From the NCBI GenBank assembly GCA_021292105.1, contig CM037865.1, forward strand, positions 66,724,630-66,788,629: 64,000 nt of DNA, read 5' to 3'. The notes below the pieces were generated by a model. The model was not told the origin of the DNA. It worked only from the letters and a program-made list of their open reading frames with translations, and ran no database searches. The translations under genes were made by a program, and so were the position numbers. Origin of the DNA: Anadara kagoshimensis. Its lineage: Eukaryota; Mollusca; Bivalvia; Arcoida; Arcidae. Shown one piece after another: positions 4,090-37,864 of the stretch. Position 1 is the first letter of the stretch; each line of letters starts with the position of its first letter.

Positions 4090-6239
4090 ATGTTTTTCGG
4101 TGTTTTCAAAACGTTACTTTTTGTGTCTGTTCTCTGTGGATGTTTCGGTTATCAAAGATTCACATATTTTAATTGCAGTAAGTATAATGTTTGTTTTATT
4201 TTAAATTACAGTTAATTTTAACAATAGTCGACAAAGTTTTCAATAACTAACATGGTTTTTAGTTCATATTTAACATTGTAACCATGTTCCAAAGACGATG
4301 TTTTAATGGTACATACATTATCAACCCGTAGTTATTCTCCCAAATCACGACAATCAGACAGTTTAAATTCTATTACTTATTAACACAAAAATGAAATCTA
4401 GATTGTTCCTGATAACATTCGTGGAATAGTTGAACGTTTGGTCTGGATACTGGAAATGTATACAAACCCTTCTATTATATCGCTACAAGTATGCCTCATA
4501 CCGTCATATTAAATCTCGGTACTTAAGTGGTCTAAAGCGCCGGCTTACAAAGGACAGCGCCTCAAATTGCCTAGACTAGAATCCCACTCAATCTGATCAA
4601 ACTGAGAAAGTTTGTCAGTTCTCTGTCGTAGGTTAGTGGTTTCTGTAAACTTCACTATCCCTGAACTAACCGCCTCGATATAAAGCGAATTTGGTTTGGA
4701 CGTAAACCTTTTACTATATTCTACTGCCTTCCGTTCTAACTAATAAGCTGTTCATCTAAAATCGGTAGTTCTATAAAAATTGTATCAGGGTTTTGATAAT
4801 TAATGTGTTTATGCATATAAAAGTGGTTTCAAAATGTTGGTCCAAGCGCCGCTGGGCTACAAAAATTAACACGGAAATAATATGTAGTGCCTTACGCTCT
4901 TTTCGGGGTCTTGATTTCTTTGAGTGCAAGACACTTATCTGCAATATAGTACCATTTCATGGATATATTGTTTATATACCTTCTTTACAGATAGTGGGCG
5001 TAACGATGCTATTATCGTAAACAGTGCCAGTGTTAGTCCGTACCCTGTTGAAATGCCGGGTACCTTGACTGCAGCGATCGAGTTCCAGGTGATGCGGAAC
5101 ATGACAGAAGGAATCAAACTTGGAGTACAGATAACACGGACCATATCATTGTGGGGTGGTTATTACCAGACACACTTGGAGATCCCCTGCTACTCCATGA
5201 TAGGAAGCTGGTAAGATATACCGATTATGCTAATTTGTGTTTCAATTTAAAAGTGCACTAATATACAAATGCATTTTTAGTATTTTCTTTTATAAAACTA
5301 GCGCGTATGTGTTTAAAATTATTGAAATAAACTTTTTATATCTGACTGACTTGTATCGTCTCATCTTTTCGCTCTTCGAATTTACAAGGCACAGAAGCAG
5401 CATTTTAGTTCCAAATAATGAAAAAAGTCAAACGTAAACCTGCAAATCATGTATTTAATTATATTTCATTTTTCTACTACTTTTAAAGATAAGTTTCACA
5501 AATTTATTTATTTACATTTAAGTGAATATGATTTATGTGGACTTCTGGATCAAGCCTTTAAGAGAACCGGAACAACAAACTGTCCATGGCAACTTACAAA
5601 CAGTAACATCGGTTGTACTTGTCCAATCCTTGCTGGTACTTATACTCTTCAGCATTCACAGTTTAGAATTCCGACTGCAACGGGAATGTGGTCTTGGCTT
5701 GTAGTGGTAAGTGTTCTTTTGAAAAACAAAACATGAAATGTGACAGTGATGGTGATCCCCTGGCACCACTTTAATTAGAATTAACCACAATCATACCGAT
5801 GCATACCTTTGTAATTAAGCGTTTTAAGATTTCGTGGTCGATTGGTTATTTGGATTGAAATAATTCGATACATGTAATTTGGAATTATGGGAATAATTTT
5901 TTGAGTAATAACTATGATTGAAGTAACGAAAATATTCAAACAAGCCAGGATAAGTTAAAGGGTTTGACTAGTGTTCTCAACATATGCATTTGACGGTTGG
6001 CATATGCATTTTTAAGATTTGTGTCCCTTTTTTATTTAAAAGTTACATTAATGAGCATTGAAAAATGTTTTTACCGTTTTAAATCTTAAGTTTATACTTT
6101 TATTTTGCAGGGTGACTATCAAATCAGATTTACACTTACGGATACAACCAACAACCAGCAGATCGGATGTTATCAGTATGGTCTTACAATACAAAACCCA
6201 TACTGTACAGGGTTTCTGTGTAATATTATGAGAAGATAA
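4090..6239 (+). CDS. GM2-activator-like secreted lipid-transfer protein 1, 4 exons
   Basis: Exons 4090-4177, 4991-5210, 5523-5706 and 6111-6239 give 206 aa, with intron phases 1, 2 and 0. A signal peptide spans about residues 1-20. The mature part matches ganglioside GM2 activator (ML-fold, MD-2-related lipid recognition). The family's eight cysteines are all visible: C29, C96 and C103 (PCYSMIGSC), C108 (YDLC), C123, C134 and C136 (GCTCP), and C184 (IGCY). The signature AGTYTL lies at 140-145. A sequon (N66-M-T) sits in the beta-sheet region. Two extra cysteines, C196 and C201 (PYCTGFLC), extend the C terminus beyond the usual family end. In vertebrates the activator lifts GM2 from membranes for hexosaminidase A; the ligand of this invertebrate copy is unknown. 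It is the first of four tandem relatives. Confidence 0.9.
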
Positions 6240-6280
6240 TAGACTAAAGAAGGTTGTCTGTGTCCTTGTATTTTATAGAT

Positions 6281-6286
6281 AATAAA
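6281..6286 (+). promoter_or_regulatory. Poly(A) signal of GM2A-like gene 1
   Basis: Canonical AATAAA 42 bp after the stop codon of the upstream gene. Confidence 0.6.
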
Positions 6287-6513
6287 ATAATCATAATACT
6301 GTTTATGAACCTTTATCAGTTTTATAGTTTAAAGATCAAAAGGTCACGACTTACAGCTTGATCAGTTCCAACTTTATAATTCGTTCATATATTTATTTAA
6401 GAAGTACATTATACTTTCATATTTACAATAGTACACATTTTTCGTCAGTATGAAGTGATTTCTCGATAACATCGTCACTTGCTTTTATTTGGTCGTAACA
6501 TATTGATCGCATT

Positions 6514-6732
6514 TTGTGTGAAGTTATGCTTCAATACAACTTACAAAAACACATTCCAAGAAGCAGACGTGGGTTAATTAAGCTGGTGGATTCAATGGGA
6601 TTGAAAAGTCTAGTTGAAAATCCCGAATATGAACCCCCTCCTTTTGAAGCTAGCGCTGAGAGAACAGACGTTGATGTCGGCTACGTGTCAATGATCAATC
6701 GTTTAGTTATGTCATTAGACGCAGTTTCTTAG
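6514..6732 (+). CDS. Unrecognised small ORF (72 aa), possibly an exon
   Basis: An open frame with protein-like composition (basic start, then SMGLKSLVENPEYEPPPFEA, ending in TAG), lying 275 bp after GM2A-like gene 1. It matches no family I know. A weak acceptor-like TGTGAAG precedes the ATG, so it could be the last exon of an unseen gene or a pseudogene fragment, or it could be chance. It is listed only because its composition is less biased than that of nearby frames. Confidence 0.2.
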   Translation: MCEVMLQYNLQKHIPRSRRGLIKLVDSMGLKSLVENPEYEPPPFEASAERTDVDVGYVSMINRLVMSLDAVS

Positions 6733-6934
6733 TATCCTATTTTTTTGTATTAGAAAATAGCAAATTAACATTGGTCACAAAACATGACTTACATACTTAT
6801 TGTCATATTGGATGTAAAAGGTGGAATTAGAAGTCAATGTTAGTTAGCATCGATGAGAAATATTTGTTTTTGCACTCAGCTGTTCTGTCAAAAACAAACA
6901 TACCAATCCATACTCAAACCAAAATCCCAAAACA

Positions 6935-7060
6935 AAGTAAAAAGTTCGTAGCTGGCAAATTAGTTAAACACATGAACTTTAACCAGGGAAGTGAGACTTG
7001 GTACTCAGGTAGGCACTTCCTGTTTAGCTAGCTTCACCCGACACCCGTTTAATCAAAATA
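6935..7060 (-). repeat. R1 dispersed repeat, inverted
   Basis: Reverse orientation: CATGAACTTTAACCAGGGAA, GTGAGACTTGGTACTC, GGCACTTCCTGTTTAGCTAG, CTTCACCCGACACCCG. Confidence 0.7.
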
Positions 7061-9057
7061 TCTATGATAAACATCAGTCGGTGGCAGGTGAGATTGATTC
7101 CCATATGTAAACCAATCACACGTATGCGATTTAGTCTATACTTCTATATTGTGTGAATTTCAATATAATATGTGATAATTATAACCATGACATCACTTAA
7201 ATTTAAATTAAGTTCACAATTTTATTTACCACATATACAGGTACAATAAATATGCAAACAAGTATGTTTTCAAATTTTGAGTTTAACAGAAACAGATTTG
7301 ATGAGCGTTTACAGTGCCGCATGTTATGACCACTTGACACCAATTGTAGAGATATTTTGGTAGTTTTTGAGGGAATTAATCAGGTCCAAAGCAGAATAAT
7401 TTAAATATGTCGGTTTTGCTTCTTTCATTCATGTGGCCTGATGTGGCGTGATCTGATTGTAACTCCTTAATATAATATAGTCTTGACATACATATGTATA
7501 TCTTATCAGTGACTTTGAACCTAATAACATTCTTATTGCCCGACATAATTCCAACAGTACGCTTGTAGAAAGTCAGTCAAATTAAGATTGATAGCGTTCA
7601 CATTTTTCAAAATTCTGAAGCGACAAACTCAAATAGGCGATTTTATTGCCAGTTATGTTATTATTTCAATGAATGGTTTTAGCTTACTACATAAATAGCC
7701 CATAACCTATGAGCGCAATGTTTTATTAACCAGTTTTTCTCCTGAATATACCTTTAGTTTTAGGTAGCAAACCGTCCCAAAAACAAGATAGAGAGAAATT
7801 CAGATCCAATTGCATATTTTCACCTATTCTTTACAATGAATCTGATAAAATGATGTATAACGGGTAATAAAAGCAGTATATAACAAGTAGTCAAGGTCAC
7901 TTTTTATCATAAGAATATAAACATTAATTATCATCGGGAAATGCAAATACAGTGTTTGAACCTCCGAATCCAAGCACTCTATATAATAAACTACAAACAA
8001 ACTAACTACATATCAGGCTACGGTCTGGATCAGGATCTGAAAAATATCGGGATCCAAAAATTACAAAGTAAAACCAGTTTTGTGTGCTTAAATTTTAAGA
8101 TCGTTCTATATCTACCAGTATGTACAACCCACTTTCATTTCCATTAGATTTAAAATACTTTGCATAACATTTGCACACAAATAAAAAATCGGCGAAACAT
8201 TACAAAAAGGAATTCTACGTAAAATTGGCAATATGAAATAAACAAGGTACTATCTCAATAAAGCTCTATAATCTAAAAGGTGACGACATAAAACACAAAC
8301 TAGCAAGCTTTAATTTAATTTTAGTATTTTTGTATAACCATAACCATCCCTTATTTTGAACGTTTGAAAATCTATTTTTACGACTGTCAAACTTAACAGT
8401 GATAAGTATGCATCTTTAATAAAACGTAATGCATTTTAAATAGAAAAATATAACATCGTAAACTAACAAGATAGAGGCAGTTCTAATCTTAAATCATTGC
8501 ATAATTACTAAGAGTGCTTGCACCGCACCGATGTAAAAAAAATCTTAAAAGACAGGACCCCGACCGGGTCTAGCCAAGACTCGAAAATAAGTATCAATGA
8601 CTTTTATATTTACCATCGTGCCACATGATCAAACGTTTGTGCGAAACGATATAAAAAATTACATCCCAAATTCCCAGATGCATCTATTTCATTTTTAAGT
8701 CATTTTTTTTATTCAATCATTATACCAAAATTTACATAAATGTATTAGCAATCGCTGATTTTCTTTTTACAAAAACATATTGACAAAAATAATCCTTACA
8801 TTTCAGCTGTCAACCGCTCGTCAAGTCGCGCAAGTTAGAAAACTTTTTTGCGATGACTGTGTAGAAGGCGGGGCTGAACCCTTTGACGGAATGTGTGACA
8901 TGAAGAAGGCGTAGATAACGCTCTGAAGGGATCAATGGCGCTAAGCCGCTCACTGGTAGAACCAGCGGTTGACAAATAAAAACCAGTATTGTAATAACAT
9001 AATTGTCCTGTTGCAAATTCTGAGAAGAAATATCAAATATTAATATTGTAAATGTAT

Positions 9058-9115
9058 TGTCATATGCTACTTTTGAATGTATTATTTCATAAAAAGTCAA
9101 AAGTAACACATGACA
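9058..9115. mobile_element. 58-bp hairpin element
   Basis: TTGTCATATGCTACTTTTGA and TCAAAAGTAACACATGACA form arms around TTTCATAAAAAG. It is a relative of 43565-43623. Confidence 0.65.
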
Positions 9116-9781
9116 TAAATATAAAAAATAACTTTCAAGATTTTGCAAGTGGCAATTCCAACATAAATTGTGAATATTTTGTTTATAACCCAACGTATTT
9201 CTCGTTTTAAAATAACTATAATATGTAAAACCCCGTGTCTTTGAAAGAAAAATCTTGCTTACAAGTATTTGTGGATATTCCCGCCAAAACAGTCTAAATT
9301 CCTGCCAAATAAATTTAAAAAATAGTAATAATAAAATGCACCATGTTTTTTACATATTGCAAATTTCAATTTCTTTCAGTCTTTCAATGCTTGAATTGAC
9401 GGATCGCCGGCCACGCACACAATGTTTTGACAAAGGACCGGCATGCATGCTTGAATTACACGCAAAAAATGAAAACTCCGAATCGTGGCGTTAATGACGT
9501 CACTGACACTAGTACGTCATTAGTTGCCGTGACGTCGACACTGCTTTGGTACCTGTGATGGCGAAACATAATAGGCATGGCCGGCGAAACGTTTATTCAA
9601 TAGACATAATTATACTGAATGAGAACCGTAAATGCATGCACTAATACCTAGACCTAGAATCTAGATTATTAAGATCGCGATAAGTTTAAAATCTGCAATA
9701 ATCGAGGTTACACATGCTTGAGATCGACAGCTGTCCCGAAATCAAGACGCACTTTCTACAGCCAGAATTCAGTTCGACTCC

Positions 9782-12245
9782 ATGTCAACCATGTTGAAGT
9801 ACGTCATTTTAATGCTTTGTGCCATATCTGGGTGCCTTTGTTCTATTAGATTCAGGTACTCCGACTGCAGTAAGTAAATTAATATATATTCCTTGCGAAA
9901 ACGGTAGCACACAACGTTAGTAATAATACAAATACATATTTGATAACATTTGCTTATGTCAAATGGCGTCCATATGTGTTTTATGATTTATCTGCTTCAG
10001 AGTAATTTCAGATTTTAAAAGTCTGACCCTGGCGTTTTAACACTGTTATCTAAACCCGTACTCATACGCTCGGAGAATAAACTGAAAAACTTAACAGAGC
10101 TAGGAAAATAGATCCCTAATGAGACCGAATCCTAGATCAACATAATGAATGTTCTGTATAAGAAAAAATGTTTCTATGCCTGACATTTCTAGTTGAACAT
10201 CAAACTTATTAAACTTAATTTTTACGAGTTTTTACGAGATATGCTTGCGAGAAGGTTAAAATTTTGTGGAGATGAGGATTATACTGTCAGCAATGTTCAC
10301 GGATTGCCTGTGAAAGCGGAGATGTCTTAACAAGAAAAACGTATAAGTGAAAGATAATGAAACTAAAGAATGTATCTATATGATACTTTTATACAGCCAG
10401 CAGAGTTAGTACAAATAGTAATGAATGGCCAATGGAAAAGGGCATAAGTTTATTTTTTTATGTTTCCCAGACGAATGTCAAAAACGTTTATATATAAATA
10501 TGTGTTTAGATGTTATGAAATACATATTAAATACATTTTTTTTACAGACACTATTCAAAAATAACTAAAATTAAAATTAATTGTGCGCTTTTTTGCTTCT
10601 TATTCGTGTTAGATAAAAAACAAAATATTGTGAATGAAGAAATATGTATTGCATCATATCCTGTACAAAACAGCACGGCACAGAAAGGTTTAAACAGAAA
10701 ACATGTCCAAAAATTTTCTCATTATCGACTTTTGACATGAACCAATAAACCAGAAAACATTACACTTGAAGTGAAGCATCCATTGATGCATACCGGCACT
10801 CATTTTCCCAAGAGCAACAATATACTGGAACCAGTTGCCGAATGGGGTTGTAGATGCACCAGATCTAGACAGATCGCAGCCACTGAAGCACTATAAACAA
10901 CCAGTAATCTGTATATAGTGCATATACTCGTTTGTTTATTTGTTTTTACTGCCCACCAGAGACTCCACACTGCACACACGTACAGTTTTTCTCTTGATGT
11001 GATTTCTGCTTGCGGATGTTATCAAGTACCAAAGTTGAATTTAAAATAAAAGACTTGTTCACTTCTAGCATACATATAATAGGCTGATGATAACACTTTC
11101 GTTATACAAACATTTTCTAAAGGAAATGTAAATCCATTGAATGTACAAATAAGACGTTCCAGAAAATGTCTAATGAGTTAAAATCATTAAACCACTTGCT
11201 TATAATCTCCGGTTTAATTTAAGATGTAGATATAAACGGCCACAAGACTAACACTGCATACAATACAACATGCTTATGCTAATCATTTTACAGGGCAGGT
11301 ATTTCAAATATTCTAAAACAACCGTCTATATTAGTTGAAAACAATGGTACATTAATTTTTTTTAATTTCGATATTTCAGACGACAGAACAATAGAAGTCG
11401 GTCATGTTGACGCAGCTCACCTAAACCCATACCCTGTAGTAATCCCTGGTAAACTGACCGTCAATGGACAGGCACATCTCTACCACAATGTTACCGCTAA
11501 CACAGAGTTACATGTCAAGATCAAGCGTCATGTTCCAATTTTAGGATACACCACAATACCATGTGTGTCTAATGTAGGAACTTGGTAAGTTTTTGTGTTT
11601 TATGTCATCATTTTATTATTTTTAATAAATTAAGACAAAAAGTAACCGGAGTTTAAAGGGGAGTTACTCCACATATCTGATTTCTCATTAACTTTTGCTC
11701 TAAACGCCTAGATGTATTTTAATATAAGGCGTCCGATTTGATTCATAAGAGGTTTTTGAAATGTGAATAACTAATTAAACCTATATAGCTTAAGATCTGT
11801 GGTTATCATACAGAAACATTATGTCCTTTGATACCATTAACACCAGGAAAATATGCATCTGAACTGTTAATGAGTGGTTAATTGTTTGTTGTCGATATAG
11901 GGAACAGAATAATTCTAACCGTTTCAGCATTTTCTCTTTAAAGAGTATCACGTACTTGATTAATCAATTGGCATTTCGCATAATTTCAGTTTCAGTACCC
12001 AATGTTCACATTATAATGGGGTTCGCCGCCGTACCACGTGATCAAAACCTCTTAACATTTTGGAAAACGTCAACGTTACAAATTCCCGGAATAACGTCGT
12101 TTTTACGGGAAAGCGTCATATTGTGCGATTCCATGTCCATTGGAAACAAGCGTTTCACAGACACGCTAGAAGGTATCACGTGCAGCGACGAACCCTATTA
12201 ATATCAGTTAAGATATTACATCTATTAAATAACAAAAAAGTATAA

Positions 12246-12290
<45 letters not shown>

Positions 12291-13908
12291 GGTCGTTGCC
12301 AAGAACATGTTTATTAATTATCATTTTCTGTTTTCTTGTTTTACTTTTACTGAAGACTCGTCTTAATTATTTATTGTCAGTAACTATGATCTGTGTAAAC
12401 TACTGAGTGATACATTTGTTGTGAATGGTGTAACAACATGTCCCCCACAGCTTACTGACAACAATATTCCATGTACATGTCCAATAATGGCTGGAACATA
12501 CAACCTTCATCCATCCGTGTTCGAAATCCCACAACTGGCAGGAATATGGACATTGTTTGCATCAGTAAGTAAATACAGTACATACCTGTCGACAGTTCAA
12601 GACTAGGCTTACGAATTAGCGCCATTTAGCGGCTCGTCTCGGCCCTTAGCTAGATAGATGAACTGTGACAGCTTTTCGGTAGTTGATATATATATATATA
12701 TTGGCAGCTAGCTATCCATATTTCTGCCACTCGGCAGCCGAGCTTTGAACCTTTCCGTTAGCTCAGTGTTAAACTATCGACAGGTCTGTACTGTAGTTTT
12801 ATGTGAAATCGCGGATTAAATACGGACGAAAAAAGGTGATAGCCAAATGGCATGCTTCAACAAAAAACAACATACTGTATAATATAGATGTCTGCGCAGG
12901 AGTTATTCTTCCGTTCTTTTCTGCTTTTTACCCCCCCCCCCCCCCCCCCCCCGCTTAAAAAGTGGGGGGTATATAGTGAAAGGGGTGTCCGTCCTTCCGT
13001 TACAGCTTAGGGTACCTATCTCTTATCCGCAACACCTCCTAAACCCTTCAATGGATTTTCATGAAACTTTCACACAATCGTTGTGATATAATGTAGATGT
13101 GCAACTCCTATTTAAAAATTTGATCCGATGGATTTTTTGGAGGGGGTATTTTTTGTGAGCTTGTGGCTTACAGTTTTTCTAGTTTACTCTAATTTCGTGT
13201 AGATTTACAAGATTTTTTGGTATTGGATGTATTAACAACTTTATTATCTCAATAATCCCTAATTATTAAAAAATCATTTAAACGAACAAAAATATATTCT
13301 TAATCCATATGGAAGTAACTGTCAGACTATGTAAATATACCTGCATTGACGCCCGTCTTCAATATAAGCACGTAGAACTTTTGGTTCTTTGTACGTACTT
13401 AGATAGCAAATATTCTGTAAATTGTAAATTTATGAATACCGAGGTAAATGGTTTTTCGTGCCAAAACGTTAGAACATATTCTTTGAAAATACTTTCATTA
13501 ACTCCAAAAGGAAACGGCACGGTGGAAAATAGCCATAATAATATTTGTGAATTTAAGCATAAAACCCAATTGTCTCTCGCAATCATTGACTCATTTCGCA
13601 CATGGCGGTTGTAACTAGCTACATGGAAGGTAGATATCTTTCTAGGGCACACGGCCTCACTTCCCTAGTGGAAGTTCACTTTTGTAACTTATTTTGCCAT
13701 TTTCAATTTTATGTGATTTTAAGATAGAAGTGCGTGTTTGTGTATGATTATGAATTCGTGTGTATTTATCTATTTTCTTTTATTACAGGGAGATTACCAT
13801 GTACATGCTACTGTTCTTGAAAATGGCGTACAAACCGGATGTTACGATCTTGAGTTTACATTGGACCACGCATGTTCCGGTTTTTCTTGTATTTTTGGTA
13901 AAAAGTAG
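9782..13908 (+). CDS. GM2-activator-like secreted lipid-transfer protein 2, 4 exons
   Basis: Exons 9782-9869, 11380-11584, 12381-12564 and 13789-13908 give 198 aa with the same phases (1, 2, 0) as the other three copies. A second in-frame ATG at 9791 is equally possible; 9782 makes exon 1 the same 88 nt as in gene 1. A signal peptide covers about 1-21. The GM2A cysteines are C29, C91 and C98 (PCVSNVGTC), C103 (YDLC), C118, C129 and C131 (PCTCP), and C177 (TGCY). The extra C-terminal pair, C188 and C193 (ACSGFSC), corresponds to that of gene 1, and the sequon N66-V-T lies at the same residue. These two shared traits group genes 1 and 2 as one subfamily. Intron 2 carries a TG tract 90 bp before exon 3. 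Intron 3 contains a terminal-inverted-repeat MITE, a poly-C run and an R1 copy. Confidence 0.9.
12248..12290 (+). repeat. (TG)n microsatellite
   Basis: About 21 TG units in intron 2 of GM2A-like gene 2, ending about 90 bp before the exon 3 acceptor. Intronic TG tracts near acceptors can affect splicing in other animals; no effect is demonstrated here. Confidence 0.95.
12584..12785. mobile_element. MITE with ACCTGTCGA terminal inverted repeats
   Basis: A ~200-bp element starting 20 bp after exon 3 of GM2A-like gene 2. The left end (ACCTGTCGACAGTTCAAGAC) is mirrored by the right end (TTAAACTATCGACAGGT), and both run on into a TTACG/CGTTAG block. Related copies lie at about 30270-30455 and 37170-37286. 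It has no coding capacity. Confidence 0.7.
12931..12952. repeat. Poly-C/poly-G homopolymer
   Basis: A run of 22 C followed by GCTTAAAAAGTGGGGGG, in intron 3 of GM2A-like gene 2. Its length is prone to sequencing error. Confidence 0.9.
13612..13700 (+). repeat. R1 dispersed repeat, partial (intron 3 of GM2A-like gene 2)
   Basis: Contains the R1 hairpin core CACTTCCCTAGTGGAAGTTC preceded by the GGCACACGGCCT block. It begins near TAACTAGCTACATGGAAGG, the degraded form of the usual TAGCTAGCTAAACAGGAAG. Confidence 0.7.
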
Positions 13909-13921
13909 TGTCATGGTGACC

Positions 13922-13927
13922 AATAAA
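13922..13927 (+). promoter_or_regulatory. Poly(A) signal of GM2A-like gene 2
   Basis: AATAAA 14 bp after the stop codon; a second AATAAA follows near 14005. Confidence 0.6.
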
Positions 13928-14069
13928 CTGTTTTTTGTAACTGAGTTGTCTTTATTGATGAATTGTGGTGACTTTTTTTTTCTTAACTTCCTTTCAAGTG
14001 TTGCAATAAACCTGTATTTCCTGCTTATGGTGTATTTTGTTCACAATTCATACGCTATGGTAGAACTTG

Positions 14070-14325
14070 TTCCCACTATAAGAACTGTATACAACGAAGC
14101 AAGGTGCTCACAAATACATTTTGGACGTATGGACTTGCAAGCCAAGGCTGATCGAGACCTCAAAATGTTTTATGACCGTCATCCCCAAAATCATGTCTCT
14201 ATGTCCAAAATTACCCTGGACATATTTGACATCCCATAGTTCCATATTCTTTTCATTCTCAATGTTGATTATATACGTGACGGGTGCAGCTAGCTGAACA
14301 TGAGGTACTTGCCCAAGCTCCGAAC
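14070..14325 (+). repeat. R1 dispersed repeat, 5' portion
   Basis: Matches the longer R1 copy at 61085-61440 from the ACGAAGCAAG start, through AAAATGTTTTATGACCGTCAT and GACATATTTGACATCCCATAG, to GGGTGCAGCTAGCTGAACAT, then diverges before the hairpin core. Confidence 0.7.
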
Positions 14326-16179
14326 AGCGGCCAACATTCGTATCTCTTTTATGACCGCTGCAGACAGCCCTTCGGAACATTTCTGAAGTTTAGATTGCGG
14401 TACTATTTTCACAGATCAATACGCGATACCCTGTGTACATTCGATACAAAATGGCGGCGCCCTGTAAGGTCGTCTTCAAATTTATCCGGAGCCAAATTGC
14501 AGAGAAAGTAAACAGTTTCTTAACTTTTCTAGCAGTTTGCCATTATCCCAACCCGTCTATTATATAATCCATATGATATTAATGTAGCATTGCAGATAGA
14601 AACAACAAATAGCTTAACGGAGAGAATCGCTACATAATTTTGTCTTATGCCAGTTACGGTGCATCTGAAATTTTATCAGAAATAACCAAAAAATAAGAAA
14701 TAGAGGCGAAACCCAATATACTGTTAACCAAATTTATATCTTCAATTAATTTAGACATTTCGATAACTGATCCAACAGTTTATTTTACCTTTTTCCCTTG
14801 GACGATAAATACTCATCAGGGACTAAAAAAATAAATAATTTTTGAATTGAAGCTTTAACCCGCTTAGGGTCACCGAAAGAGTGAGTTAAGTAATGATAAA
14901 CGTCCCAGTCAAGAATATTTCACTTATATCGAGACGTCGCCAGCTATAGGCGAAAGTGCAGAAATTTTGCCTGTGCGTTGCGCCGATGGCATTATACAGC
15001 AGGGTTCTTTAGGGAGCCAAGCCCACCGTGACACGGGCCCTCGTTTCTTTTAAGTTCCCATCTGAAAGAACCGTGACTCATTTTGTAATGCTGAGTGCTT
15101 TCGAAAGTCACTACTCACTTTCAAGTCATTTTGTGGTCTAGGCAGTCACGTTATATAATACACTAGCATACAGATTACGTACACACCTCTGCTCTCTTGG
15201 TAATCCCATTTTTCTGTATTGATGGTTTTCCCTAGAGGAACTGCAGTTTTCCCTACCATTCCAGAACTTGTTGTCTCAATATAAGTGAAAACATCTTGAC
15301 TGGGATGTAATTTACTCTATTACTCCACTGTAACAACACTGGTGCTGATATGCTATATGGCATTTTAAAACATTTGCATATAAATTGAACTCACAGGTTG
15401 CTGATGTTGTAATGTTGTATTAAGTTGCATGGGCATTTTTTCTGCTATTTGCAAACAAAGCAAGTTTATTTTTGTCTAAGGATTAATCTAAGAACAAGTT
15501 CAAGCATGTGGAGATGTGTAAGACTGCAAGTGTATGTTATGATCTGCCTTGTGCTAGTACACACTCAGGGAAACTTTAAATAAGGTGCTAGATCACAGTC
15601 AGGACACCACAGACAAGCATTCCACTCCCCTAGTCACATTATCCTGACAACAGGTTGACCAGTCAATACTCTGTTCTCTTAATATCGAGCACCATTAAGA
15701 AAGCAGATACAATTTTGATAGTCCTATGTATGACATGACCAGGGTTCAAATCCACAACCTCCCTTTCTCAAGACGGACACTGCCACTGAACCACTGAAGT
15801 GATCATAGATTGTGGTGACTGAAACTAGGTCATTTTTAAATTCAAAACTTCTTGCTGTACTCTTTGTTGATTAAAGGCGAGTCATCAACTAACAGGTTAA
15901 CTTGGCGTCAGCGTACTGTTACATTAATAAATGACATCACAGAACAGTTGGGCTTGTAGTAAACATAAGTGATGTTTTATATATATTTTTGTTTACTTTC
16001 ATCAAGCTTTTTATCCATGTTGTACAAAGGTTTTAAACAAGACTTGCAGATCCAATATTGATGCATTGGCACCAGGGTGCACAAGTCAAATTGCAATTCC
16101 ATATTTTATAAGATGTAAGATTCACATCCAAAATAAATAAAAGTCCATAGCCCATAATTTCATCAAAATCACTGAACCA

Positions 16180-16360
16180 GAATGAAACTCAAATTTTATA
16201 TGTAACTCATGATGGTAGACTCGCATACCAAATATACATTCAATATCTGCAGTAATTAGAAGTCCAGAAAACTGAATTAAACTCAAACTTTATCTGTTAC
16301 TGATGATGGTAAACTCACATACCAAATATAAGTTTAATATCTGCAATGTTCAATCTAGTA
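16180..16360 (+). repeat. Two-copy ~88-bp direct repeat
   Basis: The block AACTCAAA(C/T)TTTATATGT..ACTCATGATGGTA, followed by CATACCAAATATA and AATATCTGCA, occurs twice about 90 bp apart. It is part of a larger diverged repeat tract that runs on to about 16740. Confidence 0.6.
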
Positions 16361-24234: not shown

Positions 24235-24268
<34 letters not shown>

Positions 24269-25226: not shown

Positions 25227-25230
<4 letters not shown>

Positions 25231-25268: not shown

Positions 25269-25270
<2 letters not shown>

Positions 25271-27479: not shown

Positions 27480-27544
<65 letters not shown>

Positions 27545-29598
27545 CACTTTTACCTGAATATAAAAAGTAATTTAACATTTCAGGTGCAACTGAACATAGA
27601 ACTGAATATGCGTCGATAGATCATGTATCACTGAGCCCAGATCCCGTAGTGTTACCAGGAGATTTAACAGTTGGTGGACACATCCAAGTAAACAAAGACG
27701 TAAATAGCCATGGCCTAAAAATGAACGTCAACATTTACAAAGTTTTACTCGGACAGCAAACAAGAGTGCCATGTGTTTCAAATGTTGGTAGTTGGTAAGT
27801 ACAAAGTGTTTATTCGAAGAAAAAAAGTTGCGAAGGTCACGTGCTAAGGCTTATTGTCATTTGTATATTAATTTTAAGTTTTGGAAAATTATTTTGATGG
27901 GTCTGTGAAACATTACGTAGAGTTATATTTTCAGCAATTTTTCAACTTCCCCATTGAAATAATATGATTTATTTAAAATGTTCCATAGCCGTAAATATCC
28001 TATAATTTTCAAACACACGGATGTCTTTGGTTGAAGCTATAGACGCATGATAAGCACTAGTCTATGGGCACATGTTAATGCAAAAGGAATTCTAAACATG
28101 CTAAATTTGCGTTATTTCCTTATTAGCTAACTGTTGTATTACTAGTATACAATTTGTATAATCATCACAACTGTATTACAAACGTAATGACTTCAATGAC
28201 TTCAATTATTCTATGTAACAACAATATACCTGCTTCTTCTACTTTTGTTGTATTTACGCTATGTTGCTGACTACGGGAACTTTGTAAGATGAAGGAAGTT
28301 ACTGGTTAATGAAATGTTGACGTAGGGATATGGCAGGCCTAGGCTTACCAAAGTCAAAAAAAATATGGCCATCACAATTTTGATCATAAAGATGATGTCT
28401 CTTTTTTCAAAATTTCTATATTCCGTTCATTCCCGATTTTTATTACACATGTGGCAGGTGTAACTAGCTAAATGCATACCCGTCTGGATCACCCAGTCGC
28501 ACGTCCCTGGTGGAAGTTCACGTGTTAAACCTAGTTTGGCATCTTCAAAGTTTTCACTTTGCTTTGGGGTTTTGTTTGAACATTAGTTAGTATGTTTGTT
28601 TAGATTATATATTAATTTAATTTATTAATCATTCAGCACGTATGACCTCTGTGATTTAATTGGTTATACAAACGGAAGTAATATACACGACTGCGATACG
28701 ACAGAACTGGTTGGTCTTGGTTTGCCATGTAAATGTCCAATTACCGCCGGATCCTACACTTTACCGCCACATTTATTCAACGTACCAAAGATTGATGGTT
28801 TATGGTCATTTTTAGCATCGGTAAGTAAAAAGACGTGTAGCCTTCTGTTTTAGAGGGCAATGAAACAACAGAATATTATATAAAAAGTGCCCTTGGTTGA
28901 GGAAAATATGGACCGGGATTGTCTCCCCTAGGGAACATCTCAAAAGTTTTCAAGGGAAAACAATCCTCTATATTTCCCTCAACCAAGGGCTCAATTTACT
29001 TTATTATACCGAAAAAGTCTGAAAATTCTCTTTTTAAATGCATTAAATTGCATAAAATAGTTTAGGCGCCTTTAATCATAAATGAGGGGGTATAATAACT
29101 CGGCAGTTCCCGTGATTTTACGTGTCTAGCGGTGAGCATTGCAATATTCCATGGCAATGCAAGCATTGTGAATTTTTTCATACCACGTGATTAAAAATCG
29201 GCAAATGAAAGTTTAAGAATTTTTGGTGAGGTAAAATATTATTATTTATTCTCCGAGCTTTGTAATTTCCTTTTGTCACATTTGTATGAAGATTTATTAT
29301 TGGCATTATCTTAAATCTTCGTTAGCAGTAACTAGCAAATACAAATTTCCAATAATGAACACAAAAAAATTATTTTCTTTGTATTCCAAATACGGAATGA
29401 CATCAGTGAATGTAATTACTCTTGTACGTTTTTCAACAATTTAACCAACAGTTATTGCTACGATAATTATTATTTTTTCAGGGTTCATATCATGTACATG
29501 TGGAATTCATCGATTCCAATGCCGGAAATCTCAGAGTAGCCTGTTTTGATATCGACGTTTCCATGACGAACAAAAACCAAGGATTTCTATTTGGTTAA
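25504..29598 (+). CDS. GM2-activator-like secreted lipid-transfer protein 3, 4 exons
   Basis: Exons 25504-25594, 27584-27794, 28637-28820 and 29482-29598 give 200 aa, with phases 1, 2 and 0. A signal peptide covers about residues 1-17 (VLTQASA). This gene and gene 4 are closest to the vertebrate pattern: the SLSPDPVVLPGDLTVGG stretch parallels the LEPDPIVVPGNVT region of human GM2A, and the first-strand cysteine is C29. The remaining cysteines occur as PCVSNVGSC, YDLC, HDC, LPCKCP and ACFD, giving all eight. The C terminus ends soon after the last one and lacks the extra pair found in genes 1 and 2. Intron 1 contains a long GAT tract 40 bp before the exon 2 acceptor, and intron 2 contains an R1 copy. 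The ligand is unknown. Confidence 0.9.
27444..27543 (+). repeat. (GAT)n/(GGT)n microsatellite next to an acceptor
   Basis: About 100 bp of GAT triplets with a short GGT interruption, ending 40 bp before exon 2 of GM2A-like gene 3, which is the zone of the branch point and polypyrimidine tract. The frame reading poly-Met across it is an artefact. Confidence 0.95.
28330..28605 (+). repeat. R1 dispersed repeat (intron 2 of GM2A-like gene 3)
   Basis: A long copy running from GGCTTACCAAAG through GTGTAACTAGCTAAATGC, the core CGTCCCTGGTGGAAGTTCAC and TTTGCTTTGGGGTTTTG to TTAGTATGTTTGTTT. It ends about 30 bp before exon 3. Confidence 0.8.
28880..28995. mobile_element. Imperfect palindromic MITE (intron 3 of GM2A-like gene 3)
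   Basis: GCCCTTGGTTGAGG at 28889-28902 is matched by CCTCAACCAAGGGC at 28977-28990, with partial pairing inward. It is flanked on the right by TTTATTATACC, a flank shared with the palindrome at 30504-30642. Confidence 0.65.
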
Positions 29599-29599
29599 T

Positions 29600-31460
29600 T
29601 GTTCAATTGTTTATTTGTCGTTTGCAGTAAAAGTAATTAAGAAATAGATTTGTTTTTATTTATTTAGAGAATTAAATTAACGAAGCAGGTAAATCGTGGT
29701 AAATACAAGAATACAAAACCCACACATGTACTATGCTACCACTTGTAATGTCTTGTATATAATAACTTTTTTCATTGAATGTAGAATCAAATTATTGGGA
29801 TTTTCGTCGCGTTATTCTAAAAATTGGACACATTCCCAGTGGAAATTTTTTTATAAAAATGTTATTTTTGATCGCATCCAAGCATGTGAATTAACATGAC
29901 GAAATTTAAGATTTGTAGCCTACTTTTGAGGTAACGTATCTTTTGTTTGGTTTTACAAACGACCATTTTCGATGATGCAAAAAGTCAAATAATAGCAGGT
30001 TCCTAAATTTAATCACTTGCACAACGTAAAAGTCAGAGAAGTCCGAAAAAGTATTGTCAAAAATAATACAACATATCTGACTTCTCGGTTGCTTTTGGTA
30101 TTTCTAAAGCGTTAGTAGTTGAATATATTTGTAATTTGAAGTTGAAAAACATGCACTTGGCTATAATTAATGAAATCAGAAACAAAACAAAAACGAACGA
30201 AGAATACAAATACAAAACATGATTATAAACAAAGACCAATGGTAATAGATACCGGCACTGGTTTCATAAAAAGAACAGTCCTGTCGAATTAGTGCCAGAT
30301 CGATCGTTTAACTTGACCCTTCGTTAGCTGTATCTCGACAGCTTTCCAACAGCTTTTTATCTTTTTATGTCTATTTTGCCATCTATAACTTGGTCTGTCG
30401 ATATCAAAGCTTTTGGCTCATTTTAGTTAGCTTATTGTTAAACTTTCTACAGGTTTTTATATTATCACTGTTGATGCATATTGTATAAATGGTATATTAT
30501 ACATTTATTGCCTTTGTGTGAGGGAGATATGAACATTTGTTCACCCGCAACGAGTCATATTTCCCGAGAGCGAAGCCCGAGGGAAATGTGACTTGTTAAG
30601 GGTGAACAAATGTTCATATCTCCCTCACACAAAGGCAATAAATTGTTTATTATACCGAAAGATAACCATGACAATAAGAAAGAAAGAAAGAAAGAAAATA
30701 TTTTAAAAAAGACAGTCTGAAAACATCAATCCTTCGCCGATTCATTGTTTTTTCTCCTATCGGAACTCATCGGAGGCAAACGCTAGAACGTCAAGACCGA
30801 TTCTTCATCGATGACGTCATACCATTGTAACGTCACGGTGTGTTCCGAAGAGGTGGGATATGATGTTTTCAGAGGGATACACGATGTTTTCTCCACCCTG
30901 ATCACATGATCCAACGATCCAATCAAATTACAGATAGCATCGTATTTTTCTAATGAGGTATAATAATTACTATTAACAACCTTCACCTAAATTCCTCCAA
31001 GGGTAAAGGAAACCATTTGATTTTGAATTATCAATTAGTTCCCGTTAGCTTTAAATGCATTCAGTTTCAACAAGGTTTAAATTAAGCGTTAATCAAAGTG
31101 GCTACGTGATTGTATAGATTTAAACTGGGTTTCAAGAGATATATCAAAATCCTATCATTATTTGAAATGACATGGAGTGCCGTAGACCAACGCTGACATG
31201 CCCGATATGGAGGCAAGTGGAAGCAAATGGTGCATGGAAATGATGTATATGTAACAAAGTCGGGATAAATAACATTATTTGTACATGATAACCTCTATTA
31301 TATATTTTAATTATTTCTAATTACGATGGACTATTTCTATCATGCATCGTAATGATATGTTTATGGTGTTATGTAATGTGAATTGTTCCATCTGCCGATA
31401 TCAAATTCGGAACTATTTTTATCGAACTTTCACACTTCAGTTTTAGACGTGTAAAGAAAT
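29600..31460. other. Intergenic region with palindromic elements
   Basis: Spacer between GM2A-like genes 3 and 4. It contains a degraded ACCTGTCGA-type MITE (about 30270-30455), a near-perfect 139-bp palindrome, an AAAG run near 30680 and, to about 31000, a GC-richer tract that may be the rest of a larger element. No gene was recognised. Confidence 0.5.
30504..30642. mobile_element. 139-bp near-perfect palindrome
   Basis: The 43-bp arms at 30504-30546 and 30600-30642 are exact reverse complements by direct comparison. The 53 bp between them are themselves an imperfect palindrome (CGAGTCATATTTCCC against GGGAAATGTGACTTG). The right flank is TTTATTATACC. It looks like a non-autonomous palindromic element and would form a strong hairpin. 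Confidence 0.85.
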
Positions 31461-34400
31461 ATGGTTATTTTCTGTTTCTTGTTTGTCGTGGTATTGACAC
31501 AAGTGTCAGCATTCTTATTTCCAATCAAGCTTCCTGCGCAAACTACACCAACAAAACTAAAGTTTACCAACTGTTTAAGTACGTATGAGTTTGATTTTTT
31601 AAAAAATGTTAAAATAATACACTGTCATCAACACACATATGTTTACATATGTATTTATGTATCATCGTTCCAGATGGTATGGTCGTTCGATGCTATACTG
31701 TATATATACCGCATACGGCTTTAGGTATTCGAAAGTATCCTGCATGTGATGTGCTTTCATTTGTATTTGAGACACAAAGGGTTTTACTGCACTATAAAAC
31801 ATTTGACAAAAAAATTTTACTCTGTGTAGTAAACAAAAAAATGAAAGTGCCCAAGACCTTATCCGTCACAAGGGAAAAATCTTGATATTTTAAGAGCAGC
31901 AACCCCTTCATTGGTTATTATACACATGTACATATTACTTTTGCAATTTCGCAATTTACATGGTTTTTTATACAACTATAATAACCTTTGAAAAATAAAT
32001 TAAATATACTATTGTCTAAATTTGCTGCTAGTTATTTTGATCCTTTTTCAACCCCTTGAAAATAAGTTTGGTTTCACAATTTTAGTCCAAGTTCTACCGA
32101 TGGAGAATTGTATTCCGAAACGACCGTCGATTAGTACTGTAAAATCAACATAAATTTAATACGTAATATGTAAACAACATTTTTTTATATAATTGGGTTG
32201 GGACAACAAATCTTTCATGTATGAAACTTGCTATTCCGTTACATATTGTCATGTTCATCATTTTTGCAATGTCTTCCTTTAATTTAACTCTTAATATTTT
32301 AAAGTAATTAGCTAATAGTTCAATTGATATTTATGAAATAAATGGATATTGCCATCCTGTTTATTTTTAACATAAAATAACAATACAATTAAATGGCTTA
32401 CATAATCAAACACAAAGCACTAATCCATCTCTTATAAATCACAATATCAAAGCAAAGTCAAGACTGAATTTCAATATCGATTCTGTTAAAGAGTTTGCAA
32501 AACGTTTGGATAAATTTAAAGATGTGATCCTATCCTACTGTGTAAAGGTTGTAAGATTTTGTATCAAAACAATGATTGTAAAACAAAACGGTCTATGAGT
32601 ACTAAACCGTCTTCAGTAGTCAGGAATCCAGACATTTCGACAATCCTCACAGGCATACGTAACAAGTATGTTGTTGTCCCATATGATATATCATTCTCAT
32701 TTGTAAGAGATTCTACCTTGAATGACTTGTTAACGAGCATGGTTTAGATAGTATATCGGATTACCCTAAATATACCCGATCTAATATTACCAAAGATAAA
32801 GTTATTTCCAGTCATTGGGGAGTTATTGAGTCTTTTGGTATCAATCGTAACGAGGAAGAATGTGTATTGGGTTCTCAAATTTCACGAACATCCATACAAG
32901 GAAAGTTATAAAGCAGGTTTCTCTCAATGTACTTCTAATAAAAAAACAAACACTAATCTATGTCCGAATCACACTCCGAAAGCAAAGTATAAAATTTTGA
33001 AACTGACAGGTAGGTTACAAACGTGAACTTCCACCAGGGAAGTGAGGCCAGGTGCTCCGGAAGGGTAAGCACCTCATGTTTAGCTTGCTACAACCGTCAC
33101 GTTTGTAATCAAAATTGTGTGAAAGAAACATAGAACTATGGGACGTCAAATATATTCAGGGAAATCCTGGACACAGAGACATCAAACTTATCAACAATAT
33201 TGTGAAATGAATTAAAACTACAGATAGGAACGATTAGACTGGACAAACTAGGTTGTAGAGAAGTTGCCGTGCAATACAAAGAGGATATTGCATGAGTGTT
33301 TATGTAATATTGAATTTATTAAACGAGTTGAATAACTTTTATTCAACGAGCCTTGGCGAGTTGCATAAACATTATTCAACGAGGTTAATTAATTCAATAT
33401 TACATAAACACTCATGCAAGATTCTATTTATTATATAATCCCATAAAAACAGGTTTTTCGCAGATTTAAAACTTGTTTTCTCATTATAAGAAAACAGCTG
33501 ATTGACCGAAACACAACAAGTTCACGTAACTGTACAAGCGCCAAAAGTATTCCTGCTGAAATATTAAAAGTAAACAATAGTCTGTCCGCAGGATACAGAA
33601 ACAAAACAAACATTTTCAATTTAAATACAATGTATCTTCTTTTTAAAAGAAAAGTACAAAATTATCAGCTTAATTTAGAATCAACATACACATCCAAATG
33701 AAACAAACAATTGTGAACTAGGGCAATTGTGTGACGTCATATCGTGTGCATTTTGGGAATTTTGGAAATGTCAACAACCTAGCTTGACAAGGATTTACAG
33801 ACACGTGTTACTCGGAATCGCTATCCATTATTATTCTGGCCCGTTTTTAGAAACTGGTGATTTGTTTTGATTAATGTAGATTTGAATGTTTCCTCCGGTG
33901 GCTGGTCCTGCAAAAATGTGGAATCCGCTTTGTAAATGCATTGCTGTTGATTATTGAATGATGACTGTTGCAAAAGCGCAAAGCTTTGAAATCATTGAGG
34001 CTGTACCAGATGAGTGTGTGGATTTAATCTAGTTTGTGCTGGCTGTCCATGGAATATTCTGGAAATTTCTTTGTGTTGATCGGTATTTATCTGGGAGTAA
34101 TTGTTAATGGATATTACGGAGACCAGATTTGCATTATTTGATTTGTAGGAATGCTATTGTCATTTAGTTTTTGCACCAGGTATTACCTTACACTATGATT
34201 TGACAAGTGCTTGTCAGTCTCAATACCGGCACCTTTAATGGCTCTTTTCATTATGGAGTTAAGCTTATTTACTACTTGAACAATGTCTCCATTAAAGAAG
34301 GTGAGTTTTTAGTTGATGTTGCAATGTATAATGGATCTGTAGGTTTACAGTACGATGTAGGACGACTCAAAGAATAAAATTCATAAGCATGGATTGGACA

Positions 34401-37400
34401 TCTATTTTTATTTTCCAAATTTACCCACAATTTCGGTTTAATAACCCTTATATTTCTTGGATTTTCTCCTGTTCTGGTTTTCGTTTGACGTTCTTCAAAT
34501 TCTAAATATACAAGGCCATTCGGCTCTTGTTTTAAAGTTATATCTAACCAACACATGGCACGGTGTTCAGTAGCACCACGAAGACCAAAACAAACTGTGT
34601 TATAGAACCACAGTGTTTGTAATACACAATATGGTGTTCCAGTATCGAACTGACCAGTTTGCCATAGGATTTCAATTTCATCATCGGTGACTGCATCGCC
34701 GTGATGTGACAAATTTCCTTTACCATCGGGCTTCAATTGTTTTTCTTTGTATTTGATTACCTCCCGGACTTGTGCATAAAGGGGACTAGTAACAATGAGG
34801 TATGGGCTATTGACGTTTCAGTTGCCGGTCAAAATTGGCCATCATGGATCTAAGACTAGTTCGTTCATATTCTGACCCATCAGTTTTGCGATGAAGAATC
34901 TGCATAATATTGGTGAAAGTTGCTCTGGTGGAATATCCTGAATATTTCTAGTTTCATCGATTGTTTTACAGTATGTTTGGACTATTTTAAGATCTGACAT
35001 CGTTTTAGAAAAAGTGTTTTGTTTTATTGGTGTAGATTAAAGTACTAAATATCTTTTTCATATAATATATTATTTGTTTTAGATTGTAATTGATATATTT
35101 GTATTTCATTGTAAATACTGTAAAAGAGGAAACATTAGTGAGGAAGAAATATTCGCGATTTTCACGGTGACATATTACTTCCCAGAGAAAATTATTTATT
35201 TTCCTTGGTTCACTTTCTCTTTACTCGGAACCGTGACATTTTCTTACCGTGAAAAAGTTCAAAAGGCCAAAACCGCGAAATTTCATTAAAGTTTCCAAGG
35301 CTACCGCTAATGTTTCTTACAGTATGGAAATATTCTAACGAACATTAAGCTTTTGATCATGTATAAATTCTCACAATCGCAGTTTCTACCCAGAAGTAAA
35401 ATGTTGAATAAAAACGCCCTGTTAACGAAGTAAACAGTTAAATGCACGACCAATTGCATGGTTTGCATGTTTTGCAAATGAAGTGTACGTCATCGGACCT
35501 TGTTTTGTATCCAACCCCTTTAAAGCTAATATCAACAGACGAGCAAAGCTTTTAGTCAATTTACCAATTTATGCCTAGATTGTGCAGAAAAAACTAACAA
35601 CCATAATCACAACATGTAAAGCAAAATTACATATACATTTTGCTGTATTTAGAAATAAAAGAATTGTTTTCTGTAGGTGCAGCTGAACGTACAACTCAAT
35701 ATGCCTCAATCGACAATATATCATTGGAACCAGATCCTGTAAAGTTACCTGGTAATTTAACAGTGGGGGGACATATCCAGATAAACAAAGATATCACCAG
35801 TCATGGCCTTAAAATGAACGTAGAAATAGACAAAATTCTACTTGGAATCAAAACAAAGATGCCATGTGTTTCCAAAGTTGGTAGTTGGTATGTATATAGT
35901 TTATTCAAAAACCCAGCGTCGACAATTTTCAAAACGTTAGTCAGGGTATAGTTTTTCATTTTTCTAAGACAAATATTTTATAACTTGTATCATCACGATA
36001 TATATGGTCGGTAAAATTTAATTAATATGCAGGCACGTGTTCTTAACACCTTTGCAACTACGGTTGCTAAATATGTAAACATCATCATTTATTCTTGCAA
36101 AAGACATTTATGGAATATTTTGAACAAAACAAAATTGAGCATTATATAAATAGACTATGTCAATTATAGAACAATCCACCATTGACGTGGCGGATGCAGC
36201 TAGTTAAACAGGAAGTGCTTATCCTTCCAGAGCACCAAGTCTCATTTCCCTGGAAGAAGCTCACGTATTGAACTGAATTACAGCCATCTATTTGATTATC
36301 CAATAAAGTAATTTATTCAGTGTCCAAATCACTGTTTATGGCGGTGATTTACACTTTATTTCCATAGAAATACAATGTTTGATATAGTTCACATACTTGT
36401 GCCTAGTCGTAATTCAAAACTTGTATGCGCATCCGAGATTGTCAAAAAGTATTTCTGTAGAAGGGAAAATGTTGGCGCTATGGGAATTTTACATGTTGTT
36501 AATGGCAATGTTTACACTGGAAGTGGTGTTATTGGTGACATTTTACACCATATGCACAACAGAATTTTCAACATGTTAAATCACCATAACGCATACAGAC
36601 TTCCTGTTACGACTAGGTACAAGTAAATGAAAAATCGATTATTTTAATTTCTATATAAATAAAGCGTAATTCACTGTCACAGTAGTTCAAACAGTAGGGT
36701 TTTAAATAACCGATGTTAGCTATATATGTTTGTGTCCATTTTAGTTCGTACGATTTCTGTGATTTGATTGGTTACTCTGACGGAAATAGTACACACGATT
36801 GTGATAGATCGGAGCTGGCTGGACTTCATTTGCCGTGTAAATGTCCAATCACCGCCGGATCTTACACTTTACCGCCACATTTATTCAGCGTACCAAAGAT
36901 TGATGGTGTATGGTCCTGGTTAGCGTCGGTAAGTCTATAATATTCCCTTTTCCAATTTTTCTTCATTTTTCATTTAAAGACCAAAAAAACGTTTAATTTA
37001 CAGATTTGACTCATTGTTTAAATTTGGGTATCTAACATATCTTTTTAATTTTTTAAGAAAATAAAATCGAATCTAGTGTGACTTTATCGATTGATCATGA
37101 TCAAAAATTGTTTCTTTACAATAGCTATCTCCTTGTAGTCACGAAATCTTGATACTAAGCTACAGTACAAACCTGTCGAATGTTTATCACTAGGCTAACG
37201 AATGGTCACTGGTACCGATATCATGGTCACGAGACATCCTAGCTCTGGCGCATTTTCGTTAGCTCAGTGTTAAACTTTCGACAGTTACACTAGTGTATGT
37301 ATTGTATAATTAACGAATACAAACCGTGATAGAATACAGTGACTGTATATTACATATTCTTTACCTAAATGAGCACCCGACCTAACTTCCCTGGTGGAAG

Positions 37401-37864
37401 TTAGCGTGTTTAACCTAATTTGTCAGTTTTAAAGTTTTTACTGGTGTGGATAAGTATGTTTGTTTCAAAATACTATATGTAATTATGTTTTCATTACGTT
37501 GTTTTACGCTGATCAATGTATTCGCGTTGTTTTATTTTTTGCGGTCTAGAACCCGGAACAAATTACCCAGGTATGAAGATTATATTTTGTTGCGGTGTGA
37601 TTTTCGCGGAAACGCATTCATTTCGCGAATATATCGACCGAGAGATATAGTCGTTGTAAATATGACTTGCAATTTTTAATCATAATCCTAACTATTTTAA
37701 TTTGTTTTGGAAATTTCAACAAATTATTTTTTGTAATTTTCCAGGGCGATTACCATGTTCACGTGGAACTTATTGACACCAATGCTAGAAATCTCAAAGC
37801 AGGCTGTTTTGATATCGACCTTTCCTTGACAAACACCAAACCCTCGGGATTCTTTTTTAACTAA
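31461..37864 (+). CDS. GM2-activator-like secreted lipid-transfer protein 4, 4 exons
   Basis: Exons 31461-31578, 35677-35887, 36745-36928 and 37745-37864 give 210 aa (phases 1, 2, 0). Exons 2 and 3 have the same lengths as in gene 3 (211 and 184 nt), and the proteins are close throughout. A signal peptide covers about 1-17, followed by a 10-residue insertion (LPAQTTPTK region) relative to gene 3. The motif SLEPDPVKLPGNLTVGG carries the NLT sequon at the place where human GM2A has its N-glycan. All eight family cysteines are present (first C38; PCVSKVGSC, YDFC, HDC, LPCKCP, GCFD), with no extra C-terminal pair. Intron 1 is 4.1 kb against 2.0 kb in gene 3, swollen by a Penelope-like fragment, an R1 copy, a palindromic MITE and a Crypton relic. 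Confidence 0.9.
32400..33012 (+). pseudogene. Degraded Penelope-like reverse transcriptase fragment
   Basis: Several broken frames in intron 1 of GM2A-like gene 4 together resemble the N-terminal reverse transcriptase region of Penelope-like elements. One frame reads ILTGIRNKYVVVPYDISF, like the family's region around VVVPADKA. The next reads VISSHWGVIESFGINRNEEE, and after a frame change YWVLKFHEHPYK appears, against the family's YWIPKLHKNPYK. At least one frameshift and one stop interrupt it, and the catalytic domain downstream is missing. The assignment rests on remembered family motifs. Confidence 0.5.
33013..33215 (-). repeat. R1 dispersed repeat, inverted
   Basis: Reverse-orientation copy: GTGAACTTCCACCAGGGAAG core, GTGCTCCGG, AAGCACCTCATGTTTAGC, then TGGGACGTCAAATATATTCA and the CACAGAGACATCAAACTTAT end that is also seen at the left edge of the window. 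Confidence 0.8.
33288..33419. mobile_element. Palindromic MITE with exact 29-bp arms
   Basis: 33288-33316 and 33391-33419 are exact reverse complements (TTGCATGAGTGTTTATG and so on). The interior is partly self-complementary. The right flank again has a TTTATTATA-type sequence. It lies in intron 1 of GM2A-like gene 4. Confidence 0.8.
33850..35000 (-). pseudogene. Crypton-type tyrosine recombinase relic (DUF3504/KIAA1958-like)
   Basis: Minus-strand frames give the family's order of motifs: an N-terminal MSDLKIVQTYCKTIDETRN segment, then after a frameshift SLRSMMANFDRQLKR, then the longest piece at 34736-34272 (154 codons; LKPDGKGNLSHHGDAVTDDE, LWFYNTVCFGLRGATEHRAM, RCPIHAYEFY). Beyond its stop, KLNSIMKRAIKGAG, SNHSVR and YLVQKLNDNSIPTNQIMQI follow across further stops and a frameshift. 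The Arg in RGATEH and the His/Arg of NHSVR correspond to catalytic positions of Crypton-derived recombinases. Several lesions show it is dead. It lies antisense in intron 1 of GM2A-like gene 4. Confidence 0.75.
36185..36290 (+). repeat. R1 dispersed repeat (intron 2 of GM2A-like gene 4)
   Basis: GGATGCAGCTAGTTAAACAG, GAAGTGCTTATCC, CAGAGCACCAAG and a degraded core TTTCCCTGGAAGAAGCTCAC. Confidence 0.7.
37170..37286. mobile_element. MITE with ACCTGTCGA terminal inverted repeats (short copy)
   Basis: The left end ACCTGTCGAATGTTTATCAC is mirrored by TTAAACTTTCGACAG at the right, in intron 3 of GM2A-like gene 4. It is a shortened relative of the element at 12584. Confidence 0.65.
37368..37470 (+). 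repeat. R1 dispersed repeat, 3' portion (intron 3 of GM2A-like gene 4)
   Basis: GAGCACCCGACCTAACTTCC, TGGTGGAAGTTAGCG, TTTAACCTAATTTGTCAG and GATAAGTATGTTTGTTT. Confidence 0.7.

Follow-up and report, generated by a model that had tools for sequence, protein, structure and literature searches.

A tandem cluster of four GM2 activator-like genes and its inverted second copy in the bivalve Anadara kagoshimensis

Four GM2A-like genes share one gene structure

The window (the whole stretch of 64,000 nucleotides of Anadara kagoshimensis DNA analyzed here, C9:66724630-66788629) contains four complete GM2 activator (GM2A)-like genes on the plus strand. They span positions 4090-37864, and splice-consistent models give each of them four exons, as follows.

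4090..6239, + strand, GM2A-like gene 1: exons 4090-4177, 4991-5210, 5523-5706, and 6111-6239; 206 aa
9782..13908, + strand, GM2A-like gene 2: exons 9782-9869, 11380-11584, 12381-12564, and 13789-13908; 198 aa
25504..29598, + strand, GM2A-like gene 3: exons 25504-25594, 27584-27794, 28637-28820, and 29482-29598; 200 aa
31461..37864, + strand, GM2A-like gene 4: exons 31461-31578, 35677-35887, 36745-36928, and 37745-37864; 210 aa

All 12 introns have GT-AG borders, the intron phases are 1, 2, and 0 in every gene, and exon 3 is 184 nt long in all four. The exon-level open frames (exons 2, 3, and 4) match each other at four places in the window, with E values down to ~4e-37, and by eye we found a poly-A-like signal 3' of every stop codon (AATAAA in genes 1, 2, and 4 and ATTAAA in gene 3). 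Exon 1 of genes 1 and 2 was identified with a pattern that required Cys as the last whole codon; genes 3 and 4 were missed by this pattern, and their first exons were recovered with a looser one. A hydrophobic N terminus served as a selection filter in the choice of exon 1, and hydrophobicity was the sole criterion for the putative signal peptides. An earlier, sequence-only reading of this DNA had described a four-gene, same-strand cluster with a common structure bounded by positions 4090 and 37864. The gene models reproduce both the structure, in four genes out of four, and the exact bounds, confirming at the level of predicted genes that the tandem cluster of four GM2A-like genes is real.

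The window holds several other features. A 579-aa open frame on the minus strand (1416-3155) encodes almost all of a carboxylesterase domain (PF00135, 2e-128), and its PDB neighbors are neuroligins and cholesterol esterase. At 18799-19668 lies a 60-bp minisatellite of ~14 units. Both of its strands are open in several frames, and its Pfam matches were weak, with no passing stretch among them. Two facing bHLH open frames (56974-58149, +, and 62639-63547, -) are 50 to 60% identical over their aligning parts, and the first of them contains a 42-bp tandem repeat (57452-57596). Two tRNA-like matches (46938-47001, -, and 59710-59773, +), both at 30.3 bits and just above the Rfam cut-off, lie in repeated sequence and probably represent a tRNA-derived SINE.

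The predicted products resemble the GM2 activator

Most of what is known about GM2A comes from human GM2 gangliosidosis, and its eight cysteines pair into four disulphides. We found the ML domain (Pfam PF02221) in all four window proteins at 39.9 to 56.4 bits (cut-off, 22.7), with E values of 5.4e-13, 6.7e-10, 3.3e-14, and 5.2e-15 for genes 1 to 4, respectively. PDB searches with gene 2 and with gene 3 each returned four sequences, all of them GM2 activator (top E values of 7.7e-19 and 5.4e-20, respectively). A profile of the four proteins matched four GM2A sequences in the PDB at 3.8e-28 to 3.8e-24, and the next matches were a phosphatidylglycerol/phosphatidylinositol (PG/PI) transfer protein (6r4m, 0.087) and an unrelated chain (0.93); none of these six matches up to E 10 was named MD-2, NPC2, or Der p 2.

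In alignment with 1g13, all eight GM2A cysteines are present in each of the four products, as had been proposed from the letters, with the cysteine matching human C94 lying one alignment column off in genes 3 and 4. An extra C-terminal cysteine pair, C-x-G-F-x-C, is common to genes 1 and 2. The tryptophan of the human SWLTTGN motif is kept only in genes 1 and 4 and is replaced by Leu in gene 2 and Phe in gene 3; another tryptophan, two places before this position, is found in all four proteins. The absence of the SWLTTGN tryptophan from genes 2 and 3 implies that the loop facing the membrane or lipid is conserved only in part. A glycosylation motif occurs at the place of human PGNVT in gene 4 only, and genes 1 to 3 have the motif elsewhere.

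The window proteins are like vertebrate GM2A (PDB 1g13, 1pu5, and 2agc) in their ML domain, eight cysteines, and similar length, and they are 24.5 to 32.5% identical to the human and mouse chains. They differ from vertebrate GM2A in the loss of the SWLTTGN tryptophan from two products and in being encoded by four tandem genes, two of which have the added C-terminal cysteine pair. The ML domain, the PDB profile matches, and the eight cysteines support the assignment of all four predicted products to the GM2A family.

The array contains old and more recent duplicates

At the amino acid level, genes 3 and 4 are 72.0% identical, genes 1 and 2 are 38.9% identical, and the other four pairs range from 28.7 to 34.4%. 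Genes 3 and 4 have a dN/dS of 0.215 at a dS of 0.77, showing purifying selection between them; silent sites are saturated in the other five pairs. In a maximum-likelihood tree that took in GM2A proteins only, and so has no bearing on family membership, genes 3 and 4 grouped together with a support of 100, and genes 1 and 2 stood apart from genes 3/4 and the vertebrate proteins with weak support (79). The array would have grown through old duplications, giving rise to gene 1, gene 2, and the 3/4 lineage, and then through a later one that produced genes 3 and 4.

A second, inverted copy of the cluster lies on the same contig

We searched the genome (1115223567 bases in 36 contigs) with exon 3 of gene 3 and with exon 3 of gene 1. 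Each query found the same eight places, counts that are lower bounds: four in the window and, on the minus strand, another four at C9 71.306-71.332 Mb. Beyond these eight, the searches of the 1.1-Gb genome yielded no credible copy, again as a lower bound; the genome-wide queries were exons of genes 1 and 3, and more distant relatives may have escaped them. A ninth match, on C7 (E 0.5), was attributed to chance, and the motif is absent from the fetched sequence. Using tblastn with exons 2 to 4 of genes 1 to 3 over 124 kb plus 180 kb around the second copy, we found only the eight genes, and the other matches there (E 0.02 to 1) were judged to be chance.

The Pfam ML model also marked seven other exon-sized places in the genome (L001-L007), which belong to the same Pfam family (PF02221) as the window genes. 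We rejected them as GM2A-like, as none resembles window exons 2 to 4 of genes 1 to 3 (best E, 0.27); from a reading of the motif, they may be NPC2-like. Four of them (L001-L004) lie within ~50 kb at C2 45.835-45.886 Mb, and a related pair (L005 and L007) lies 1 Mb apart on C13. A pattern search of viral contigs gave 31 matches, none of which was a relative.

The second cluster is inverted and lies ~4.5 Mb away, within a copied stretch at C9 71.257-71.409 Mb, and the similarity takes in the whole window.

1..64000, no strand assigned, whole window in a stretch with an inverted copy: 49988 of 64000 bases in collinear matches of at least 400 bp

The collinear stretch is at least 124 kb long (C9 66.665-66.789 Mb, at and before the window), and we saw no end of the similarity. 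Collinear matches of at least 400 bp cover 102531 of the 124000 fetched bases; within them, 79189 bases are 91 to 98% identical, 22 kb are lower, and 1.4 kb are above 98%. Among the 15 matches of at least 2.5 kb, 13 are 91 to 97.2% identical and the other two are 87.4 and 74.8% identical. Large insertions are present on both sides between the two copies. Window positions 40406-42146, which are missing from the second copy and overlap nearly all of a reverse-transcriptase open reading frame (40511-42154, -, PF00078), look like an insertion that occurred after the copies parted.

The second copy of gene 1 is identical to the window copy at 204 of 206 aa (dS, 0.071; dN/dS, 0.06), that of gene 2 at 187 of 198 aa (dS, 0.102; dN/dS, 0.24), that of gene 3 at 168 of 169 aa over exons 2 to 4 (dS, 0.027; dN/dS, 0.10), and that of gene 4 at 188 of 209 aa (dS, 0.165; dN/dS, 0.31). 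The later introns of gene 2 have low identity between the copies (67 to 92%). In exon 1 of the second-copy gene 3 (C9:71317070-71317159), a one-base deletion breaks the frame; either this copy is a pseudogene or the assembly contains an error here.

Gene 4 lies in a block that is unusually divergent between the two copies.

31234..38583, no strand assigned, gene 4 block: matched pieces 74 to 83% identical, compared with C9 71.300-71.312 Mb

Among the pieces listed, at most five per intron, the gene 4 introns were 68 to 78% alike in eight of the nine aligned pieces, and the remaining piece, of 49 bp, was 92% alike. Just downstream of gene 4, identity is 98.0% in the piece at 38898-40406 and 98.8% in that at 42146-43496. 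In the maximum-likelihood tree, the window and second-copy forms of gene 4 group with a support of only 56. We considered gene conversion of exon 2 from gene 3 into the second-copy gene 4. At 19 sites in this exon, just one gene 4 form agrees with gene 3, the second copy at 10 and the window copy at 9, a result that is suggestive at most; 9 of the 10 second-copy agreements fall at 147-183.

There is an even chance that the assembly has retained an alternative haplotype as the inverted second cluster, such that the haploid genome would have four of these genes, not eight. Collinearity over most of the fetched sequence, chiefly at 91 to 98% identity and broken by large insertions and deletions, is how divergent haplotypes look, and similarity without a visible end points the same way. 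However, the 304 kb fetched around both copies contain no N gap, and the dS of gene 4, with introns that are mostly 68 to 78% alike, is far for alleles. In addition, a 1.2-kb probe taken from between the two arms (C9 68.8 Mb) had no long second copy among the 40 of 114 candidates scored. This result argues against a mirror through that point, but it comes from a single probe that could lie in an insertion. At 68.0 Mb, a 374-bp repeat dominated the matches of another probe, which was uninformative for this reason (40 of 1716 candidates scored). We regard the balance as even between alternative haplotypes with old divergent blocks and a real inverted duplication partly homogenized by conversion.

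GM2A-like genes of other animals and possible roles of the cluster

As far as the available text of the papers cited goes, bivalves with expanded GM2A-like gene families and with differently regulated paralogues have already been described, and the window cluster is a fairly ordinary example. The GM2A-like proteins form expanded families in both Pinna nobilis and P. rudis, and one table row, which we take to be that of P. rudis, gives 6 (PMC13093298). Two GM2A-like paralogues in Mytilus underwent opposite and very large Q-PCR changes, which the authors connect with a build-up of lipid in lysosomes (PMC3094310), and in Mytilus fed with toxin, GM2A-like transcripts changed in both directions (PMC4203926). 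By these descriptions, the Pinna and Mytilus genes are multicopy, as in the window. GM2A-like occurrences are also recorded in abalone (PMC9327721) and in Aplysia ageing (PMC8195618). Among the titles and abstracts listed for GM2A in the open-licence literature, none dealt with mollusc GM2A-like genes in a tandem array or with a gene structure common to them. What is new here is the second, inverted copy of the cluster within a long collinear stretch.

Several of these accounts, in the portions available, bear on what the proteins might do. GM2A is among the highest transcripts of the Mytilisepta digestive gland, at 5163 TPM (PMC5549309), and a GM2A-like protein occurs in the octopus salivary gland (PMC7693380), consistent with secreted lipid carriers that would help the digestive gland to digest food outside its cells and take up lipids, with no glycosidase as partner. 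The Mytilisepta authors, however, assign the gene to lysosomal functions, and we consider this digestive role unlikely. LPS and PGN induce GM2A in the Manila clam (Ruditapes) hepatopancreas (PMC7430831), and GM2A marks a hemocyte cluster in Biomphalaria (PMC9484523), as might be expected of immune proteins that bind microbial lipids, somewhat like MD-2. HEXB rises with GM2A in the same clam experiment, however, which also fits lysosomal activation, and the six PDB profile matches up to E 10 include no MD-2 chain; an immune role seems to us decidedly unlikely. Finally, the proteins might carry chemical signals, as has been proposed for some arthropod ML proteins. In mites, ML proteins that contain a GM2A domain are counted among the chemosensory lipid carriers (PMC6773775), and a GM2A-like protein was found in Biomphalaria-conditioned water (PMC9589101), but the available text of the mite paper, which covers eight genes of the NPC2 or GM2A-domain type, reports neither tandem duplication nor positive selection, and we think such a role highly improbable.

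The sequence-only reading had taken the cluster as a local expansion of secreted lipid-binding proteins with new ligands or roles such as lipid uptake, immunity, or chemosensing. This interpretation holds in part. The gene models, the Pfam ML matches, and the PDB profile bear out the GM2A family and the tandem duplication; of the suggested roles, digestion and immunity draw indirect support from other molluscs, and chemosensing is a matter of analogy, solely with arthropod ML proteins.

Discussion

The available part of one review states that no gangliosides have been reported in invertebrates, and aminoethylphosphonate glycolipids are described in molluscs. Together, these points imply that GM2 is probably not the ligand of the window proteins; if invertebrates lack gangliosides, this would be a further difference from vertebrate GM2A, and by this analogy we regard GM2 as an unlikely natural ligand. 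With GM2 set aside, the most economical reading is a cofactor for the extraction of other glycolipids that bear hexosamine. We therefore favor, with a probability of about 0.5, the interpretation that the tandem GM2A-family genes encode lysosomal or secreted glycolipid-extracting cofactors among which the work is divided.

The observed gene structure and family relationship speak for this interpretation: the only credible PDB profile matches are GM2A, the eight cysteines are present in all four proteins, frames and splice sites are intact, and genes 3 and 4 are under purifying selection (dN/dS, 0.215). From other molluscs, the high digestive-gland transcript of Mytilisepta, the opposite expression of the two Mytilus paralogues, and the induction of both GM2A and HEXB by LPS and PGN in the Manila clam also speak for it. 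We count against it the retention of the SWLTTGN tryptophan in genes 1 and 4 only. For secretion, ligand, enzyme partner, and expression, we infer the following. Each product would be a small ML-domain protein that probably goes to lysosomes or is secreted. It would lift a glycolipid from the membrane into its own hydrophobic cup and offer it there to a soluble glycosidase, for which a beta-hexosaminidase is the likeliest candidate. The cargo would probably be neutral or phosphono-glycosphingolipids of the animal itself, or lipids from its food, and not GM2, and the gene copies have probably shared out the work according to tissue or inducer.

A more elaborate proposal combines these ideas with the history of the locus. 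In a ganglioside-free animal, members of the GM2A family would have become specialized extractors of phosphono- or other invertebrate glycolipids, and the array would have been doubled as an inverted pair. At gene 4, two forms that separated long ago would persist between flanks that are much more alike, and exon 2 of one form may have been replaced in part by gene 3 sequence; the locus would in this way hold more than one ligand specificity. We put this forward as a long shot.

The inverted cluster is a warning about gene counts, in that the eight genes of the assembly may be four genes plus an alternative haplotype. The compact array of intact copies would allow a direct test of what GM2A-type proteins carry without GM2 and of whether the copies divide the work.
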